NCBI RefSeq assembly: GCF_000003815.2
Contig: NC_049979.1
Coordinates: 24,339,752-24,403,751 of the forward strand
From: Branchiostoma floridae
Taxonomy: Eukaryota; Chordata; Leptocardii; Amphioxiformes; Branchiostomatidae
Length of the DNA stretch: 64,000 nucleotides
Direction: 5' to 3'
Notes under the pieces: generated by a model
What the model was told of the DNA's origin: nothing
The model's database searches: none
The model's input: the letters and a program-made list of their open reading frames with translations, nothing else
In this document: positions 6,898 through 44,500 of the stretch, piece by piece
Numbering within the stretch: position 1 is the stretch's first letter
Layout: each line of letters begins with the position of its first letter
Translations under genes and position numbers: made by a program

Positions 6898-8137
6898 ACG
6901 TCCCCGCGTGGCGCGAGATCTCGTGGACTACACAGATAAGGATCTCTGCGACTTGATCGAATTTGGTTTCCCTGTGAACTATTCCGGTCCGCGTCAACCA
7001 GATGTCCCTCTCACAAATCACGCGTCATCTCTGCGCTACCGTGATCATGTTAAAGACTATATAAGCAAGGAACTTCGACTCGGGGCCACCATAGGTCCAT
7101 TACCTACAGACTTCTTCACCCCGCCTTTAATTTGTAGCCCATTACAGACTGTCCCAAAGAAAGATTCCAGTAGCAGGCGGATAGTGGTGGACTTCAGCTT
7201 TCCCGAGTTCACGTCAGTCAACGCTGGAATCTCCACGGACACTTATCTCGGCGAGCGCGTGCGCTTACGTTACCCGTCTGTAGATGACTTGACTGCCTTA
7301 GTTGCGCGGCTCGGCCCCGGCTGTCTACTGTACAAAAGTGACCTTAGCCGGGCATACCGTCAACTTTACGTGGATCCTGCTGACTACCATCTTCTCGGTT
7401 TTCAGTGGGAGGGGAGTCGTTTCGCTGACGTCACCGTACCCTTCGGGATTCGTACGGGCTCCCATCTCTGTCAGCGCGTTACGGACGCGGTACGCTTCAT
7501 CTATGGCACCTACGGCTACACTTGCGTCAACTACCTGGACGATTTGGGCGGTGCGGATACACCGGCGCGCGCTCCTGACGCATTCGCGTGCCTGGGTCGA
7601 CTCTTACTGGAATTGGGTTTGGATGAGGCGGCAGGCAAGGCCGTCCCGCCCACCACGCGTCTCGTCTTCCTCGGGAAGATTATCGACTCCGTGCGCATGA
7701 CGATTGAGGTCACACCTGAGCGTCTGACTGACACTTTGACGGAATTACGCGGTTGGAGCCACAAAGTCGGAGCGCGACGCCGAGACGTTGAGTCCCTGCT
7801 CGGTAAATTACAGTTCATCGCTTCCTGTGTGCGCCCGGGTAGGCTATTCATCTCGCGCATGTTACTGTTTCTGCGCCGTTTTCCGGACAGACACACATGC
7901 ATGCCCCTCGACGAGGAATTTCGCAAAGATCTGGTCTGGTGGGTCACCTTCCTCCCTACGTACAACGGGATCTCTCTCATCCCCCAGTCCGGGTGGACCA
8001 AAGCGGACGCAGTCTTCAGTTCCGATGCTTGCCTGACGGGCTGTGGGGGCTTCTTGGAATCGTCAGGAGAATACTTCCACGCGGTCTTTCCTGCCTTCAT
8101 CCTCGAGCAGGACCCTGTATGGGGATCCTCAGAGTGA
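6898..8137 (+). CDS. Reverse transcriptase-RNase H of the DIRS/Ngaro-like element (5' part missing)
   Basis: An open frame of about 413 codons emerges from the N run. It carries the RT fingers motif VPKKDSSSRRIVVDF, the catalytic DLSRAYRQL block near 7340, VPFGIRTG, and the YLDD active site (7532-7543). After it come the thumb and connection (LVFLGKII) and an RNase H start with FSSDACLTGCGG near 8017-8052. The sequence style (YLDD, PFG-R-G) fits DIRS-order elements better than LTR elements or LINEs. The frame stops at 8135-8137, earlier than a complete RNase H, and the N run follows 14 bp later. A frameshift or a chimeric assembly edge is possible. Confidence 0.85.
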
Positions 8138-20800: not shown

Positions 20801-23517
20801 TACCAAATGCAACGGTCTCATACAATGACTTGTACCTTTCCCACAGTGTTAACCACGAGTTTGATGGATGGTTGGAGGATGTCGTGATGATCTCTTCTGA
20901 CGGCCTTGTTGACTGGAAAGCCCCCGCCGTCACCATGTCTGCCTGCCTGGTGGACGTGTCCGACTTCCCGTTCGACCGGCAGGCGTGCCCGCTGAAGTTT
21001 GGCTCGTGGAACCAACATGGTCGCCAGGTCAACTATGTTAATGAGAGTGAAGATGGAGACTTGGAGGACCTCATCCGGTAAGTTTTATCCCACTGGCAAT
21101 CGGAAATATTGTTGTTGTTATTGGGAGGGCCTCAGATACTGTCCATGTATATCATCCTTTACTTGCGGCCTGGGGCTAAATTGCGAAGGGCTTGTTGTTG
21201 GCGGGGCTAAATCACCACTCGGCACTAACTCTTGTGACCTCAATACGATTGTAATTTTGCCAGTTACGGCCATAGATTTTGAACCACTTACCGGAAGGAC
21301 TAGCCTGTGTTTACACAATCTCTCGCTGGCTGGGGTTAATGACCCCCGGCGGCAATACTATAGGGCCGGCCGCTAGGAGCGCGATTTTAGTCAGGCTACC
21401 GGAAGAACTACTATTCTTTTCGAGAAGTGTGTTGGTTCTTAAAAGTGGTACGAGGCGTGGCTCTACCAAAAAAAAACATGGGGCCTTGTGGGTTTTACAT
21501 CCCTTCCGAAAGGACGTCCATACCTAGTCTTTGATACTGCAAATCTTCAAAGTTTTGCTGTGGTTTTATATTCACAATTTTCTCGCTGAAACTTTTAACG
21601 TCCGTTTTGCTATTTCAATAGAAACGTGGAGTGGGAAGTGCCGAAGATGGAGGTACAAAGAGACGTCCATGATTACAACGGAGTTCCGTATCCGGACGTG
21701 ACCTTCACCATCCACATGACCCGGAGGTCAACGTTCTACGTCATCAACATGTTTCTCCCCTGCGCCCTGCTGGCCTTCGTGGTGGCGGCGACCTTCTACC
21801 TGCCGCCCGACTGTGGGGAGAAGATCTCGTTCGGCGTGGCGGTCCTGCTGTCCCTGGCGGTGTTCCAGCTGCTGGTGGCTGAGGCCGTGCCTCGGTCCGA
21901 AAACATCCCAGCCATAGGTACGGATAAACGTGTGTCCTTAAACCATTCCCGCCATACATATATAGGTACAACTATTTCTTAACCCGACTGCAGAAGTGTG
22001 TGTGTGTGCTGTACGAAGAATTTCTGCAATATGAATGAATGAATGAAAGACCTTTATTGTACATTCATGCCTCGACGGGCTAGGTACAGGTCACTGATAA
22101 CAGACATGACTGATAACAGAATAACAAATATATGAAAAAAAACAACAGGATACAATTTAACTAGTTGAAGGTGCTAAGCTAACAGGATGGTCGACATCTT
22201 CTCGCTTCTTTGTACAGGTGTAGATATAAGAACATATAATGTTTGATATACAGGGTTTGTCTAGGCGCATCAAAAATAGAAATTTATCCGTTGCATTAAG
22301 ATGTTCAAAATATGGGAACTCTTTTCTGATATATTCATAACAGAATAACAAATATATGAAAAAAAAAACAGGATACAATTTAACTAGTTGAAGGTGCTAA
22401 GCTAACAGGATGGTCGACATCTTCTCGCTTCTTTGTACAGGTGTAGATATAAGAACATATAATGTTTGATATACAGGGTTTGTCTAGGCGCATCAAAAAT
22501 AGAAATTTATCCGTTGCATTAAGATGTTCAAAATATGGGAACTCTTTTCTGAATATATATATATATATATAAGAAGACAATTACCTGAGTGAAAACGGAG
22601 ATATTGCAATAAGTTGGTGTGCTAGTTTGCTTGTCTGTGAGTCTGCAGCGCGGTATTCTGCCAGGAAGTAAGATGAAGATGAAAATGGTGTATGTAATAG
22701 GATACTTGGAGAAATGGAGGTCTGGTTTGGCTCTGGTTCAATGTTGTAGACAGGCAGGAAGTGATTGAGTTGGCTTAGTAACATACATCCAGTTGGGTCG
22801 ATAAGGATACTCATTAATATATAGTCTGTCTCATATAGCGTTATAGTGTAGCTGGTGTGTTGAGGTTTTTTTGACATGAAAGCATTTTAATGAACTGTTT
22901 CTCAGTACAAACATAACGTTATATTTGCTAATTTGGACTCTTTTGTTGTAAATTTTGGACTGATGATGATAACGGAATTGACTATTTCCACAGGCCGTTA
23001 CATCTTCGTGTCTATGGCCCTGATGTCAGTCTCTCTCATCGCCACTGCGTTCGTCATCACGCTGGGCGACTCCGTTGAGGACAGCAAGCCGGTTCCTGAT
23101 TGGGCGCGAAAAGTGTTCCTCAAGTACATCTCCATGGCACTGCTCATGGGGAACCAATCGCAACGCAGGTGGGGGTCACGTGAGCACAGCTACAGCCCAC
23201 CAACCACCGTGAAGCTTACGGAGATGAATGGCTTTGTAAACGGGAACGGCATGTATTCTGTCAACTATCCGAGTATCCGATCAACAACCTACAAAGACAG
23301 CCACCCCGCATTGGAGAAACAGCTGGAGTACCTGAAGAAAGTACAGCGCGCGGTAGAGGAAATATTGTCCAAAATTAAGCGCATGGACTCATTGCACAGT
23401 GTCCACAACGAGTCGAAGATACTGGCCAAAGTTGTGGATAGGATCTTCTTGGTGCTTTACGTCATTGCTTGCGTCATCACCCTGTTGGAGACCTTTATCA
23501 ACGTCGGAAGACAATAG
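14871..23517 (+). CDS. Nicotinic acetylcholine receptor-like Cys-loop channel subunit (complete, 7 exons)
   Basis: Exons: 14871-14946, 19483-19637, 20065-20109, 20363-20472, 20847-21077, 21622-21917, 22994-23517; all have GT..AG and keep frame, giving 478 aa. Exons 3 (45 bp) and 4 (110 bp) have the lengths conserved in nAChR genes. Residues 1-25 form a signal peptide. The extracellular domain holds loop D (DVWLRL), loop A (WRPD) and the Cys-loop C162-C176 with FPFD between. TM1 is near 244-266, TM2 near 272-296 (GEKISFGVAVLLSLAVF, with Glu rings either side and Leu at 9', hence cation-selective), TM3 near 306-328, then a short cytoplasmic loop with an amphipathic helix, and TM4 near the C-terminus (end VGRQ). 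Loop C (YNGVPYPDVTF) has no adjacent cysteine pair, so it is a non-alpha type subunit. It should assemble into pentamers in the plasma membrane. Intron 1 is 4.5 kb. Confidence 0.92.
15539..15751. mobile_element. MITE in intron 1 of the Cys-loop gene
   Basis: The ends TTAGACTCTACCAGGCTCCA and its inverted partner GAGCCTGGTAGAGGCTAAG lie about 210 bp apart. The arms run inward about 40 bp, through the A-rich stretch. Confidence 0.7.
17575..17980 (+). repeat. Dispersed SINE-like repeat, copy 1, with a CA tract
   Basis: GTTCTGCTGCAGTACCAATG...ACCTTGACCTTTGTCTTCGC here matches the minus strand at 26965-27170 (GTTCTGCTGCAGTACCAAGG...ACCTTGACCTTTGTGTTCAC). Related, more diverged pieces occur near 35985-36130 and 54650-54790. 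Confidence 0.6.
18027..18068. repeat. (GAAC)n microsatellite
   Basis: About ten perfect GAAC units, in intron 1 of the Cys-loop gene. Confidence 0.9.
19900..19993 (+). repeat. Dispersed ~90-bp sequence with octamer and CCAAT-type motifs, copy 1
   Basis: TCATTTGCATAACGTCTCTG followed by ATTGGTTATC...AAATTGAGTTAATTG and GGGGACA.GTGTAGC is repeated at 25363-25456. It lies in intron 2 of the Cys-loop gene. Confidence 0.65.
22030..22580 (-). mobile_element. Non-LTR retrotransposon 3' fragment with an internal 222-bp tandem duplication
   Basis: The minus strand encodes a C-terminal retroelement tail (NATDKFLFLMRLDKPCI) related to the fragment at 45223-45540. It ends with ACAATAAAGGTCTTTCATTC plus an (ATTC)n tail (22030-22055). 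The coding part is present twice, about 222 bp apart (22112-22335 and 22334-22556), nearly identical. It lies in intron 6 of the Cys-loop gene. Confidence 0.7.
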
Positions 23518-38500: not shown

Positions 38501-41500
38501 AACATTCTGGCAATTTTGAGGCAAATCGATCTTGGACGGCCGAGCAAGGCGGGGTTAGAGGCTCATGCTGCTTAATATTCATGAGCATCCTTTGTTTACT
38601 CGTGATCCTCGGCCCTAATTGTCCTACGATGTCATTGGTCAGAAGGTCAGGTGATCTCTCATATCACCATATAAGGATGACCGTGGAGTGATCTATGTGC
38701 AGACAATTTGGTTCTCCGTCAGCCTAGGCCACGCTTTTCTTCGTTCCCGACCACAGCGGCTTCCCCGAGGAAATTGTCTACAAGCTTCGATTTGAGGACA
38801 GCCACGTTTGCCTAGAAATGCTTTATCCGTGGTCCCTTTTCTTCAGAAGGGAAAATGAAGGTTTGGTGAAATGTTGACATTTGTTTTACGTGCTTTATTC
38901 GTTGAGGGGAAATTTCCGTGCCCACGTGTTATGCGCTGACATTCTTTGTTGCCTTTTCGTGTGCTTGTCTTCGCCCAGCGTCGACATTTGACTCCGTTTT
39001 GTTTCAGTTTTCTTCTCTTGTAGTTCCCCAAGAATTTAGCTTGACGAGATACTTTTGGGGGCATGTTGTCAAGATGAACGATTTTCCTTTGTTCTCAGCT
39101 ACGTATACGATGGCCAGCCGCCAGGTGCAGAATGTGTTTCCACTAATTAACTTGGAGCGTTTCTTTCCTAGGGAAGCCGCACTGGTCATTAAGATTTGTG
39201 GAAGATTTGAGGTGTGCGATATGTTTTATGTGTGTCTTTTACTGTTTTATCTGCCAGAAGTTTAGAAAGTCAAATGTGGTGCAGACTGCAGGGGTTACCA
39301 CGAGGCCAGGACACACGTTGACTTAATTAATTTCCCATCACCTGCATTCCTTGTTGGTTTGCCTTGTTTTCATTATTACCGGGTTAGGGAGCGTTTGGAT
39401 GATTAGGTGTTAATTATTTGTTGGGATTTTCGTTTTCTTTCTGACGTTTGTTCATCGGCTCGAGCAAGGAGGATTGGCGAGTGGGAGACGCAGGTTTTCA
39501 CATGTTTGTTCTGAGTTATTTTTCACAGATCTCCTGGCCGACGACAGAATTGACGTTATCACGAGGCCAGACTTCATATGCAGATTTTGCCGGCTCTGCT
39601 GTCAGGAATTAGCGACACCGTGCTGCACGTGGACAAGTTCTTCAGATTCCTGATTTTTTTTTCGGTGGTTGGTGGAAAACGTTTACGGTTACGTAAGCTT
39701 TGCTTTCGATTGAATTTGTTTCAGAGGATACGTTGAATTATTAGATTGTGTATGGGGGTTTGATGTTGTTTTATTTTCGCTGGGGAAACTGTTGTATTCC
39801 GCATTTCGAGTTCCTCTCTTTGGCATGGTTGGGTTTACGTGTGTGCCAGTTGTGGTTTGGAAGTTGTTTGGGAGCTGTATAAAAGGCTGCCTGGGAGGCA
39901 TGTTATCGGCACGTTGTGGCCCTTTGTAACCAGGATAGCGCAGTGTGGTTGGTTTGTTTGGGAACTTGAGAGAATGTTACAACGTTGTTTTGCCACATTG
40001 CGCTAGTTAACTATGTACGTCTTTGGTTTACCAGTCCCTACGGTAGCCGGTACGAGCCAGTCCTTTCCTGGTTACCTGATTGAGAGAGGAGACGGCGGCG
40101 CCGGCCGGCTTCGGTTCATCAGGCGGCTCCAGTCCTGGTTCGCGCGGCGGCGGCACCGAGTCAGCAGGCTGCTCCAGTCCCGGTTCGCGCAGTCAGCAAG
40201 CGATTCCAGCCCTCGGGCCTTGAGCTGTGGTGGCACTAGCGGTTTTTGGTTTTTTGTTTCGTTACCACGGGTTTCTGGGTTTGTTTGCTATTGTCTGCAT
40301 TGTTTTCTCCAGTAGATTTTCTATGCTAAGTTTTTTGTTAGTTTGTTGTTTTGTTTGTTGTTGTTTTTTTTTTTAGGCTTTGTAACCAGGCAGCAGTGTG
40401 GTAGGTTTGGTATGGAAGAGAGAATATTAATGTTGCAACGTTTGTTTTTGCCATCTGTGTTTAGGCTTTAATAACTACGTATGTCTTTGTTAATAGCTCC
40501 CGCAACGACTTTAGGAGACGGATTGACGGCGTCGGCTTAGCAGGCGGCTCCAGTCCCGGAGTTGGTGGCTCCGAGTCAGCAGTCGGCTCCAGTCCTGGTT
40601 CACGTGGCGGTGCCAAGGCAGCAAGCACCAGTCCTGGTCCTAGCAGTGGTGGCTCCGAGTCAGCTGGCGATTCTTTGATTTCTTCCGTTGTTGTCTTTGT
40701 TCGTAGTCGTTACTAAGCAGTTCCCCGGTTTCGACGCTAGGTCGTTGGGGTGTAAAGTCGTTCCCCGGGTTCGACACTAAGTCGTTGGGGGTGTAAACTA
40801 TTGCTCCCCGGTTTCGACACTAAGTCGTTGGGGGTGTAAACTATTGTTCCCCGGTTTCGACACTAAGTCGTTGGGGGTGTAAAGTATTGTCCCCCGGTTT
40901 CGACACTAAGTCGTTGGGGGTGTAAAGTATTGTTCCCCGGTTTCGACACTAAGTCGTTGGGGTGTAAAGTATCGTTCCCCGGTTTCGACACTAAGTCGTT
41001 GGGGGTGTAAACTATTGCTCCCCGGTTTCGACACTAAGTCGTTGGGGTGTAAACTATTGTTCCCCGGTTTCGACACTAAGTCGTTGGGGGTGTAAAGTAT
41101 TGTCCCCCGGTTTCGACACTAAGTCGTTGGGGGTGTAAACTATTGTTCCCCGGTTTCGACACTAAGTCGTTGGGGTGTAAAGTATCGTTCCCCGGTTTCG
41201 ACACTAAGTCGTTGGGGGTGTAAACTATTGCTCCCCGGTTTCGACACTAAGTCGTTGGGGTATAAACTTTAGTTCCCTGGTTCGGCACTAAGTCGTTACG
41301 GGTTATTTTTGTGTAGAATTTGTTAAGTATCGATGTTTGTTTCGATGCTAGACCTATTGGTTGATGTGAAGAGGCGAGATAACGTGTAAGTAAAAGAAGT
41401 GTTTGTGCGTGGCATGTTACTGACAGGAATTGCAAGCTCTGATTCAGCGCACAGATATTGAAGAGACAGACCAGGCTACGGAGCTTCTGTTTAATCGAAG

Positions 41501-44500
41501 CACGGACGTAAGCAACAAGATGAAGCCCGGAATTCCGACCCCTGTTACATCATCTACTCTCTGACTGCAGGAGCTCCCGTGGAGGGGCCAGCGAGGCATC
41601 GTCTGAGTTTGGATATTGTTGTAAAGAAGATGTTGTTTGGTTTGATATGACTATATCTAGGTTATAAAATAGAAAATTGAAGATTGTATAGACTTTAATA
41701 AACTTGGATAGGCAAATGGCATATATGTATTTATATGTTTTGTATATACGTGAATTCACCTGATGTTTTCAGGTTATTAATAAAGAACTTTGTTGTGTGG
41801 TGCGTCTCTTTTCTGTAGCATGTTCTTTCTTAGTTTGCTGATGGTTAAAAAGTTTTCAGTTTTGAGAGGCTTTTGTCGTGCTCATAGTCTTAGTTTATTT
41901 ATTCTTAAACGAGGCGGTGTAAAGTGCTGGGGTAAATGGTGATCTATATTACGAGCTTGATAGTTGATTTACATATTGCGAACGGCACCAGATAATGGTT
42001 TGTGTAAATTGAGTTGAGAGTGGGAATAGTTGATGATTTATATAACTTGACATGAGAGTGAGAACAGAGGTTGGTTTGTTAGTATGAAAGAAGATTGGGG
42101 ATTGTATAGCGTGAAATGAGAGTGGGGATAAATGATAGATTGAATAAAATGAAATGAGAGTTGGGGTAAGTTATGGTTTAAGAAGAAGACTCTGCTCTAC
42201 TTAGACACACTGGGCGTGTTTTAGGGAAGGTAAGGGCAGAAGTAACAAGTGCAACTAGTGCGGAAGACGGCAATCTCCGCATCATCTATTCACCTACACC
42301 GGAGGACCAATGATTACGCAGGATAATTAGGAAACTAATTGTCCTACGATGTCATTGGTCAGAAGGTCAGGTGATCTCTCATATCACCATATAAGGATGA
42401 CCGTGGAGTGATCTATGTGCAGACAATTTGGTTCTCCGGCTGCCGCTAGGCCTAAAGCGACCCACCCAGCCCGCCCTAACACATTTTCCTCGGGGAAGCA
42501 CGCGACCGCTCAGGAGCGGTCGCATTAGAAACCATGAAACTTTAGGCTTCAGACGGCAATCTCCGCATCATCTATTCACCTACACCGGAGGACCAATGAT
42601 TACGCAGGATAATTAGGAAACGAATAGTCATGATCATGCTCCGGGCACGTGTTGCAGGGCGGACGGAGCAGTTAATTAATATTCATGAGTCCAAACACCC
42701 CGTGGCAGTCCAACTCAGCCAACGTGTTGACTGGTCCTCCCAGAGGAACTAAACAATACCACAGCATGTCAGCATTGACTACTGTAATTCTTGAAATTCT
42801 CGCGTCTGGAAATTATAGCGTTTTGGGGAAAATGGAGTAACTCGCGTCACTTAATTTTAGCGTTGTGAAGGAGCCGCTAAATTTTCAGTCGGATGTGTGA
42901 AAAAATAGCATGAATATCACCAAAACCCTCGATAGTTTACATGCCTAAAGTCCGAAAAATACATGACTAGAAATAACATACACGCCAGCGCTGCGTGTGG
43001 TTCTGAATAATAAACAACTTCCGTACCGACGCGGTGATTTCAAAACGCGCTTGACGGCCGCCGACTCTGGCCGGCCGGCGGCCCGCTAAATTTTGACGGA
43101 CATAGCCGACCTAACGATGACAACAGCCCACTTGATACTGCTGTCGTGAATAAGGAAGCTGAGAAAGCCATACAGGCGGCGAACAGCGAGAAAAAACGTA
43201 GCGGGAACCACCACCATACTCCGGAAGCAGGACCAAGATTGCGAAATTTGGTAGCGAAAACTTGTGAGGGACGTCAGCGAATCTCGAATCGGCCACGCAT
43301 TCGATCAAAAAGACGTTTCTGGAAGAAGTCGCCCGCCATGGAACGAACAAGATCGCAAACTTTTCACACAAAAAACATCGCCAGACTTGAAGGTTGCCGA
43401 CCTCGATGCGGCACCGCAGAAATAATTTTTGTGAGAACATGCGGCGCAGGGTCGGCGCCATTTTGAAAGTTGATTGTTGTTGTTTGTACGCTTGGGTGGC
43501 GGCGGATTCTTGTAATGAGGGTTTGATTCCGAATTGTTCGTAGCTCACAAAAAAACACGCCTTACATATTGCGCTTTGACGCTATGAATTTGACTGTATT
43601 TCTGCCTAGAAATTCGTAGATTTACACCAAATATTCCGTAGTGGCTTTGTATTTTTTTCTGCGACGCCATTTTTGCTGTTGTTGTCTGCACGCTAAGATG
43701 ACGCGGACATTTTCTAAGTCTTGTGTAACATCGTAGCACAACGTGAACTTCGTAACTGTTTTGTATATTTTATGGACAAACTTCTAAATCGTAGCGTAGA
43801 ATAATATTGATAAATACGATTGTGTAAATATGCAGCTCAGTTCGTAACGAATTTGTGTTGTTTGCGTCAGCAATGACTCAGCATGCTTTCACTGCATTTT
43901 GTAAAAGAAATGACGACAAACTTTCCATTTAAATATATGTTTTATTTCTTGAAGAACGACGAACTTCTTGTTCCTGTGTGAATTACTAGTGTAATGTGTG
44001 CACGTTTTTGTAAAGGATAAGAGTTATATCGTGACCGTATATAACAAAACCAGAAATCGGTGCCGCGACATTAGAGGGAGGGGGGCGGTGGTGAATTCGC
44101 GTAATGAAAAAGTCGCGTAATGAAAATTTAGCGCTCGACTAGTGGGCGCTAAAAACGCTAAAATTAAGTTACCGCAATAAAATCAAGAATTACAGTATAT
44201 ATCAAGAACGCTAAAGTCAGGATTAATACATAGTGAATCAGTCATGTACGTCACCGCCTTTGCTATGACGCGTTGTGCTCTGTCATTTCAGGAATACTAA
44301 ACGGTATCCTTACCCGTCAGGTGCTTTCATATCATAGTGCCAAGTGAGCACTGCAGTGGTGATGAAGCTAGCCAACAGGACAGCCAGCTGCACAGCAATC
44401 CCCAATATCTGCCATCTGGGAGTAAGCAAGTTTTATCATGTGCAAAACGTAGCCACGGGTCTCATATGTCTTTCTGAGGGAAGGAATCTAAGTAGGTATT

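Follow-up and report, generated by a model that had tools for sequence, protein, structure and literature searches.

Ngaro-like elements are retrotransposons that encode gag, a reverse transcriptase with RNase H (RT/RNase H) and a tyrosine recombinase (YR), and that carry split direct repeats in the order A1...B1-A2-B2. The same order was identified in a family of elements of the amphioxus Branchiostoma floridae, one member of which (4006 bp) lies at 38616..42621 of a 64,000-nt stretch of NC_049979.1, the window, to the whole of which coordinates refer unless a locus or contig is named. Ngaro-like retrotransposons with split direct repeats have been described in amphioxus near the VCBP2/5 cluster (PMC2632668; each source cited here was covered in part). 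A Ngaro-like element identified on contig C19 also resembles the window family in its putative B/A recombination site and in where the TATA box lies. The window family differs from Ngaro-like elements in that no RT/RNase H or YR was found in it, and in its apparently non-coding body with a minisatellite.

Non-autonomous partners of YR retrotransposons seem to be rarely described. SIRE of Trypanosoma cruzi is the non-autonomous short form of VIPER and corresponds to its A2-to-B2 region (PMC6681497, PMC12278014). As far as the covered parts of these sources go, the structural counterpart of SIRE is the A-x-B2 solo copies of the window family, x being the segment between A2 and B2; the solo form therefore has a precedent, and VIPER likewise shows no target-site duplication. 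Unlike SIRE, the window family also occurs in full, as A1-body-B1-A2-x-B2, the body being long and unrelated. SIRE was the one non-autonomous DIRS/Ngaro partner found in the literature, which was surveyed in part, and no description was found there (Repbase lying outside the survey) of a long form whose body is foreign and bears a minisatellite, with one cis module common to at least four families.

TOC1 of Chlamydomonas has split repeats, contains tandem repeats and lacks an RT. Compared by description only, it resembles the window family in all three respects and differs in its algal host and in belonging to the PAT/Toc group. LARD and TRIM elements, which are non-autonomous long terminal repeat (LTR) retrotransposons, have the same arrangement of a non-coding body between intact cis-acting ends that is moved in trans; they rely on LTRs and a DDE integrase, as opposed to split repeats and a YR in the window family. 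Taken together with the evidence below, it is highly probable that the window element is a non-autonomous Ngaro-type retrotransposon moved in trans. It works like an enzyme-less Ngaro and is classed as a derivative rather than as Ngaro proper, as neither RT nor YR was found.

Layout, copies and insertion sites

Self-comparison of the window showed A1 (38615-38718) and A2 (42335-42438) to be identical over 104 bp, one more than in the original prediction, and B1 (42265-42335) and B2 (42551-42621) to be identical over the 71 bp predicted. A single C at 42335 is common to B1 and A2, so that B1 adjoins A2 directly, as had been noticed, while the 112 bp of x (42439-42550) separate A2 from B2. The start of A is an inverted repeat of the end of B over about 24-30 bp. 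The parts of the element are as follows.

38616..38718, + strand: A1, left split repeat, equal to A2; the element starts TAATTG at 38616, the left boundary being set by six copies in unrelated flanks and by the empty site of copy L014
38670..38676, + strand: TATA box TATAAGG in A1, at nt 55 of A
38719..42264, no strand assigned: body, read as non-coding from homology searches and comparison of open reading frames (ORFs) across six copies
39922..40193, + strand: diverged internal duplication, first copy, 73-76% to blocks in 40378-40668
40378..40668, + strand: diverged internal duplication, second copy, 73-76% to the first
40720..41297, + strand: minisatellite, 43-bp unit, 13.6 copies
42265..42335, + strand: B1, internal split repeat, identical to B2
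42305..42360, no strand assigned: palindromic B1/A2 junction, putative tyrosine-recombinase site, with spacer GAAA at 42331-42334; based on fold, arm pairing and likeness to the C19 element
42336..42438, + strand: A2, internal split repeat, identical to A1 and with the same TATA box
42439..42550, + strand: x, unique segment between A2 and B2, common to three other families and to the RT-bearing locus L034
42502..42523, + strand: 9-bp hairpin in x, GCGACCGCT-CAGG-AGCGGTCGC, from pairing across 11 sequences
42551..42621, + strand: B2, right split repeat, equal to B1; the element ends ...GGAAAC, the right boundary being taken from the flanks of six copies

The minisatellite of the body had been predicted correctly. 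The 455-bp duplication was found to be present, but is old and patchy, consisting of blocks of 73-76% identity that lie about 420-460 bp apart. Furthermore, the 15-mer GCTTCCCCGAGGAAA at 38759-38773, just 3' of A1, recurs in x (42485-42499) as its reverse complement, so that the two ends of the RNA could pair with each other.

The assembly searched comprised 513 Mb in 431 contigs, and the match counts given here are lower bounds. Six copies, the window's included, were found to reach both ends, one each on C1, C11, C18, C2, C19 and C5. These are 3503-4307 bp long with unrelated flanks (n=6), their bodies diverge pairwise by 1.2-11.8%, and all six have the order A1-body-B1-A2-x-B2. A-x-B2 was identified alone at five further loci (79-89%; at least 47 matches in all), two of which, L018 and L019, share flanks and therefore represent one insertion that was duplicated later. 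The A/B unit is thus a mobile family; the search for further copies proposed with the original prediction yielded six copies in one order, and not a repeat pair confined to this locus or arranged differently elsewhere.

All long copies were found to have the left edge N^TAATTG and the right edge GGAAAC^ (^ marking a boundary). The base 3' of the element is T at 14 of 16 right ends, a count that leaves out the diverged ends of L018 and L019, with G in the window and A in L016; the base 5' of the element varies across copies (C, A, G, T). Copy L014 is inserted inside another repeat, one frame of which looks like a LINE endonuclease. Copies of this repeat on C8 and C11 supply the empty site, reading CTCAG^TATCC with no gap. 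In this one of the six copies, comparison of filled and empty site showed that insertion removed no base and duplicated nothing other than a T. This clean insertion fits conservative recombination at a short core, and not a terminal inverted repeat (TIR) transposon.

At the window locus, the element is flanked by direct copies of TTAATATTCATGAG (38572-38585 and 42676-42689), 30 and 54 bp from its ends; it is perhaps inserted in another repeat. On C4, locus L012 was found to hold left ends only, with two A1 starts (2199 and 2553) about 354 bp apart and nearly the same left flank. It is the left end of one family copy locally duplicated with its flank, no right end having been found at the locus. 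Six further candidates were rejected as copies, namely L015 and L028 (body pieces only), L037 and L038 (A2-x-B2 pieces only), and L033 and L036 (x-B2, with no B1 or A2 within the 2 kb examined).

Renewal of the repeats and a body without enzymes

Within each copy, A1 and A2 were found to differ at 0/100 positions in five copies and at 1/100 in L014, and B1 and B2 at 0/64 in 6/6 copies. The same letter stands in both repeats of every copy at 10 of the 12 variable columns of A and at 5 of the 6 of B; the three exceptions comprise two at repeat edges and one true difference in L014. For example, A at column 11 of the A repeat occurs only in the window copy, in both A1 and A2. This identity within copies, together with the concerted columns, indicates that both repeats are most simply copied from one template in each round. 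Reverse-transcription models of split-repeat elements have such a one-template origin of the repeats (PMC6681497, in the part covered). Gene conversion between repeats would yield the same mark within copies. Recent movement, which had been suggested from the identity of the repeats, is an upper bound only, since 0 differences in ~164 sites allows ~2% divergence.

The longest stop-to-stop ORF inside the window element is 119 amino acids (aa). ORFs of at least 80 aa shift in length and frame across the six copies and none, as judged by eye, is conserved in all six; the body ORFs were therefore rejected as genes, indels altering them from copy to copy. Two body ORFs matched 0 families in Pfam, and the window had 0 Rfam matches at gathering scores. 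A tblastn search (E <= 0.01) was performed against the whole window and 16 relatives (L009, L010, L011, L013, L014, L021-L024, L026, L027, L029-L032 and L035), a set that leaves out L025, L012 and the solo loci. Neither the RT/RNase H of L041 and L034 nor the YR frames of L051, L054 and L055, used as probes, matched the window element or the 16 relatives, in agreement with the original prediction of a body without an RT frame. Controls for both probe types were recovered, in part as self-matches and in part at 40-55% identity, those for RT/RNase H at 44-53%. A gag-like probe (L056) likewise matched neither the window element nor the 16 relatives; this is a weak test, as the probe recovered no autonomous locus except its own. 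The window family appears to encode no protein.

The one tblastn hit in the window lies outside the element, at 7016-7969. It is a weak match (21%, E 3e-7) to RT/RNase H of the element on C19 and is perhaps another, diverged RT-bearing repeat. At 22113-22558, between exons of a ligand-gated channel gene, a 223-bp unit occurs twice in tandem at 99% identity; this pair is a recent local duplication.

The shared right-end module and relatives with enzymes

As the start of A is an inverted repeat of the end of B, a palindrome around GAAA arises where B1 meets A2. The single strand at 42300-42365 folds with a z-score of -7.8, and 21/30 arm positions of the palindrome are complementary. A TATA box was identified at nt 54-60 of A in 8/8 non-autonomous rows of the comparison (four families, two rows being solo copies) and in 2/8 autonomous rows, namely L052 and L054, both of which have a junction of the window's design; the A starts of L055, L059 and L061 in this comparison are estimated only from the end of the B repeat. 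We infer that the TATA box borne by A is a working promoter. In the hairpin of x, 93.9% of 99 cells pair and one pair is altered on both sides in 4/11 sequences. The covariation score was reached by 1/500 shuffles and the number of two-sided pair changes by 455/500, so that the covariation lends weak support, the rows also being related.

Three further families with different bodies were found to share the B1-A2-x-B2 module, their loci having been recovered at 66-70% via the right end. These are L022/L023/L026 (6.7 kb in L022, 7.1 kb in L023), L021/L024 (4.9 kb in L021) and L027 (1.36 kb). Each has its own A1/A2 and B1/B2 pairs wherever A1 was found; in L024, L025 and L026 the stretch examined contained no complete A1. 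Loci L029-L032 are more L027-like right ends, each with its own B1/B2 and A2, and the right end of the L022 type gave at least 10 full-length matches over 318 bases (92-100%, query included). Locus L035 (C10:1899400-1901380) has a right end with two stretches resembling B and, as in L021-L026, a minisatellite body; it is another member of the wider passenger set.

Among relatives with enzymes, the C19 element is one whose site matches that of the window. It has an A1 (L056:846-953, 97.2% to its A2), an RT/RNase H frame (L041:628-2850), an ALOG region, YR-like regions matched in two pieces (L052:220-1514), and B1 (L052:1947-2016) and B2 (L052:2281-2350) at 95.7%, with a TATA at nt 58 of A. Its B1/A2 junction agrees with that of the window at 39/52 bases (75%) without a gap, and 0/5000 shuffles were as good. 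In a BLAST comparison of the window element with 13 Ngaro-like right ends, L052 of this element gave a match of 75% over 52 bp (E 0.003). Locus L034 (C11) carries RT/RNase H frames at 817-1383 and 1373-1693, followed by an x-B2 module at 1710-1882 that ends GGAAAC^T and is 69% identical to that of the window; L034 is a broken copy, as YR, B1 and A2 are missing. Its RT has at least 69 matches in the genome; apart from the self-match, the 17 best show 36-53% identity, and 14 of them contain an open frame of 705-780 aa. The ends shared with autonomous elements are thus the C19 site (39/52) and the x-B2 of L034 (69%), neither of which matches A, x and B together exactly.

The junction of L054 (C17) has the same design as that of the window (CCAAT, GCGCA, ATAG-GTTA-CTAT). 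In L062, L064 and L065 the palindromes lie around GGTAC^TAT or AGTAC^TAT and belong to another class (20, 19 and 16 of 30). L051 and L053 are close to open RT frames, but no B1/A2 junction could be recognised in the 4.2 kb examined, and L055, L058, L059, L060, L061 and L063 showed no site of the window's class.

Eight frames of the Ngaro-like relatives, covering parts of each element, were scanned with Pfam. ALOG domains, which we take to derive from YR proteins of DIRS-type elements, were identified in 4/8 frames from three elements. One ALOG frame also matched Phage_integrase just under the curated cut-off (26.9 vs 27.1 bits), and one frame gave a weak RNase H-like match to DNA_pol_viral_C below cut-off (E 0.005). 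No Pfam family was found for the RT of these relatives, and none of any kind for either L034 frame or the gag-like frame; the RT identity is our own reading, based on how the frames align with one another, on a 'YIDD' motif and on the literature. No methyltransferase domain, a feature that separates DIRS/PAT from Ngaro, was found in the eight frames. The relatives are Ngaro-like rather than DIRS-1-like, an assignment made by layout and literature and not by an RT tree; the PAT/Ngaro layout and DIRS-type machinery of the original prediction are supported with this narrowing. A search for a full-length relative had also been proposed, and Ngaro-like elements with RT/RNase H, recombinase and split repeats do exist, that on C19 with the B1/A2 site; the exact A/B ends were found in no intact element.

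Competing explanations and proposed movement

A non-autonomous Crypton is an improbable source of the family. A Crypton YR excises and inserts a DNA circle with no RNA step, and a palindromic junction and insertion without target duplication do indeed require a YR alone. However, all four repeats persist across four families and are renewed together in the window family, and to our knowledge Cryptons neither need nor renew a split B1-A2 bridge. Furthermore, the YR elements met here with such a site design carry RT/RNase H, no search having been aimed at Cryptons.

The inverted repeats of about 24-30 bp at the A start and B end made attractive a second reading, in which a long TIR transposon (A1-body-B1) was joined by a miniature inverted-repeat transposable element (A2-x-B2) that landed alongside it with a 4-bp GAAA duplication; GAAA follows B1 and B2 alike, and A-x-B2 occurs alone at 5 loci. 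This was dropped on the flanks of six copies and the L014 empty site, and we regard it as very unlikely. GAAA stands at the right end of 6/6 long copies whatever the target and is therefore part of the element, the left ends of the six copies show no matching duplication, and GAAA is absent where the element inserted in the L014 empty site. The double unit also recurs at six unrelated sites and in three further families with other bodies, and among the matches listed A-body-B never occurred without A-x-B.

Rolling-circle elements of the Helitron type, with shared ends and joined head to tail, would account for the lack of target duplication, the minisatellite body and the end-to-end joining. 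Helitrons have TC...CTRR ends and insert at A^T. The family has no such ends, its left bases (C, A, G, T) do not fit A^T insertion, and its junction is palindromic like YR sites, with elements carrying RT and YR having the same site design, which leaves this explanation with hardly any credit. Least probable of all is a local rearrangement or segmental duplication without a mobile family; the shared flanks of solos L018 and L019, one duplicated insertion, speak for it, and it is contradicted by six full copies in unrelated flanks and by the filled and empty L014 pair.

Several observations weigh against a Ngaro-type element moved in trans. Other palindromes in the scanned stretches reach 15-20/30 arm positions, by chance or low complexity, and 21/30 alone is therefore not decisive. 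AATAAA occurs at 41697, 41779 and 42143, upstream of B1, where the transcript would end prematurely unless read through. L052 was the only match among the 13 Ngaro-like right ends compared by BLAST, and the L054 site was rejected as sequence evidence, 620/5000 shuffles scoring as high. The same A, x and B were found together in no intact autonomous element. Over most of its length the L034 RT had no match above 53% except itself; short pieces on C6 reach 58-63%, but there the sequence is interrupted by stop codons. Judged by x-B2, the nearest RT-bearing relative is a broken copy, and the matches listed include no close intact kin of it, though the repeats of five copies are identical.

For a Ngaro-type element moved in trans, the following course is proposed. 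The TATA box in A1 would start a transcript near the A1 end, which would read through the body, B1, A2, x and B2. The RT/RNase H of an autonomous Ngaro element would copy this RNA in trans, the internal B1-A2 junction acting as a bridge that would restore the missing ends and close a DNA circle, as in the scheme that Goodwin and Poulter reportedly put forward; the identity of A1 with A2 and of B1 with B2 in each copy would follow from this bridge. The circle would carry a B2^A1 junction, ..TAGGAAAC^TAATTG.., the same as the internal B1/A2 junction. In the circle, a helper YR would then recognise the palindrome at B^A, whose arms lie around GAAA, and recombination with a target T would give N^TAATTG...GGAAAC^T. 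The A-x-B2 solos may be products of A1 x A2 recombination or may themselves move as a shorter form, a question also raised for SIRE of VIPER. In Dictyostelium, DIRS-1 has verified circular intermediates (PMC5633606, in the part covered), while the element described here is known from sequence alone.

More tentatively, the Ngaro machinery of this genome might support a whole class of protein-less passengers, comprising at least four families whose bodies are unrelated, whose whole elements measure 1.4-7 kb and which have one cis-acting right-end module, B1-A2-x-B2, in common. The x hairpin would then be an RNA signal for recognition by the helper, and new passengers would form from foreign sequence caught between A1 and B1; this is a possibility that we rate well below even. 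The families set the cis-acting parts apart, namely the recombination site, the TATA box, the B1-A2 bridge and the x hairpin. As these are separated from the enzymes, the families provide a small substrate for a direct test of the Ngaro replication model.

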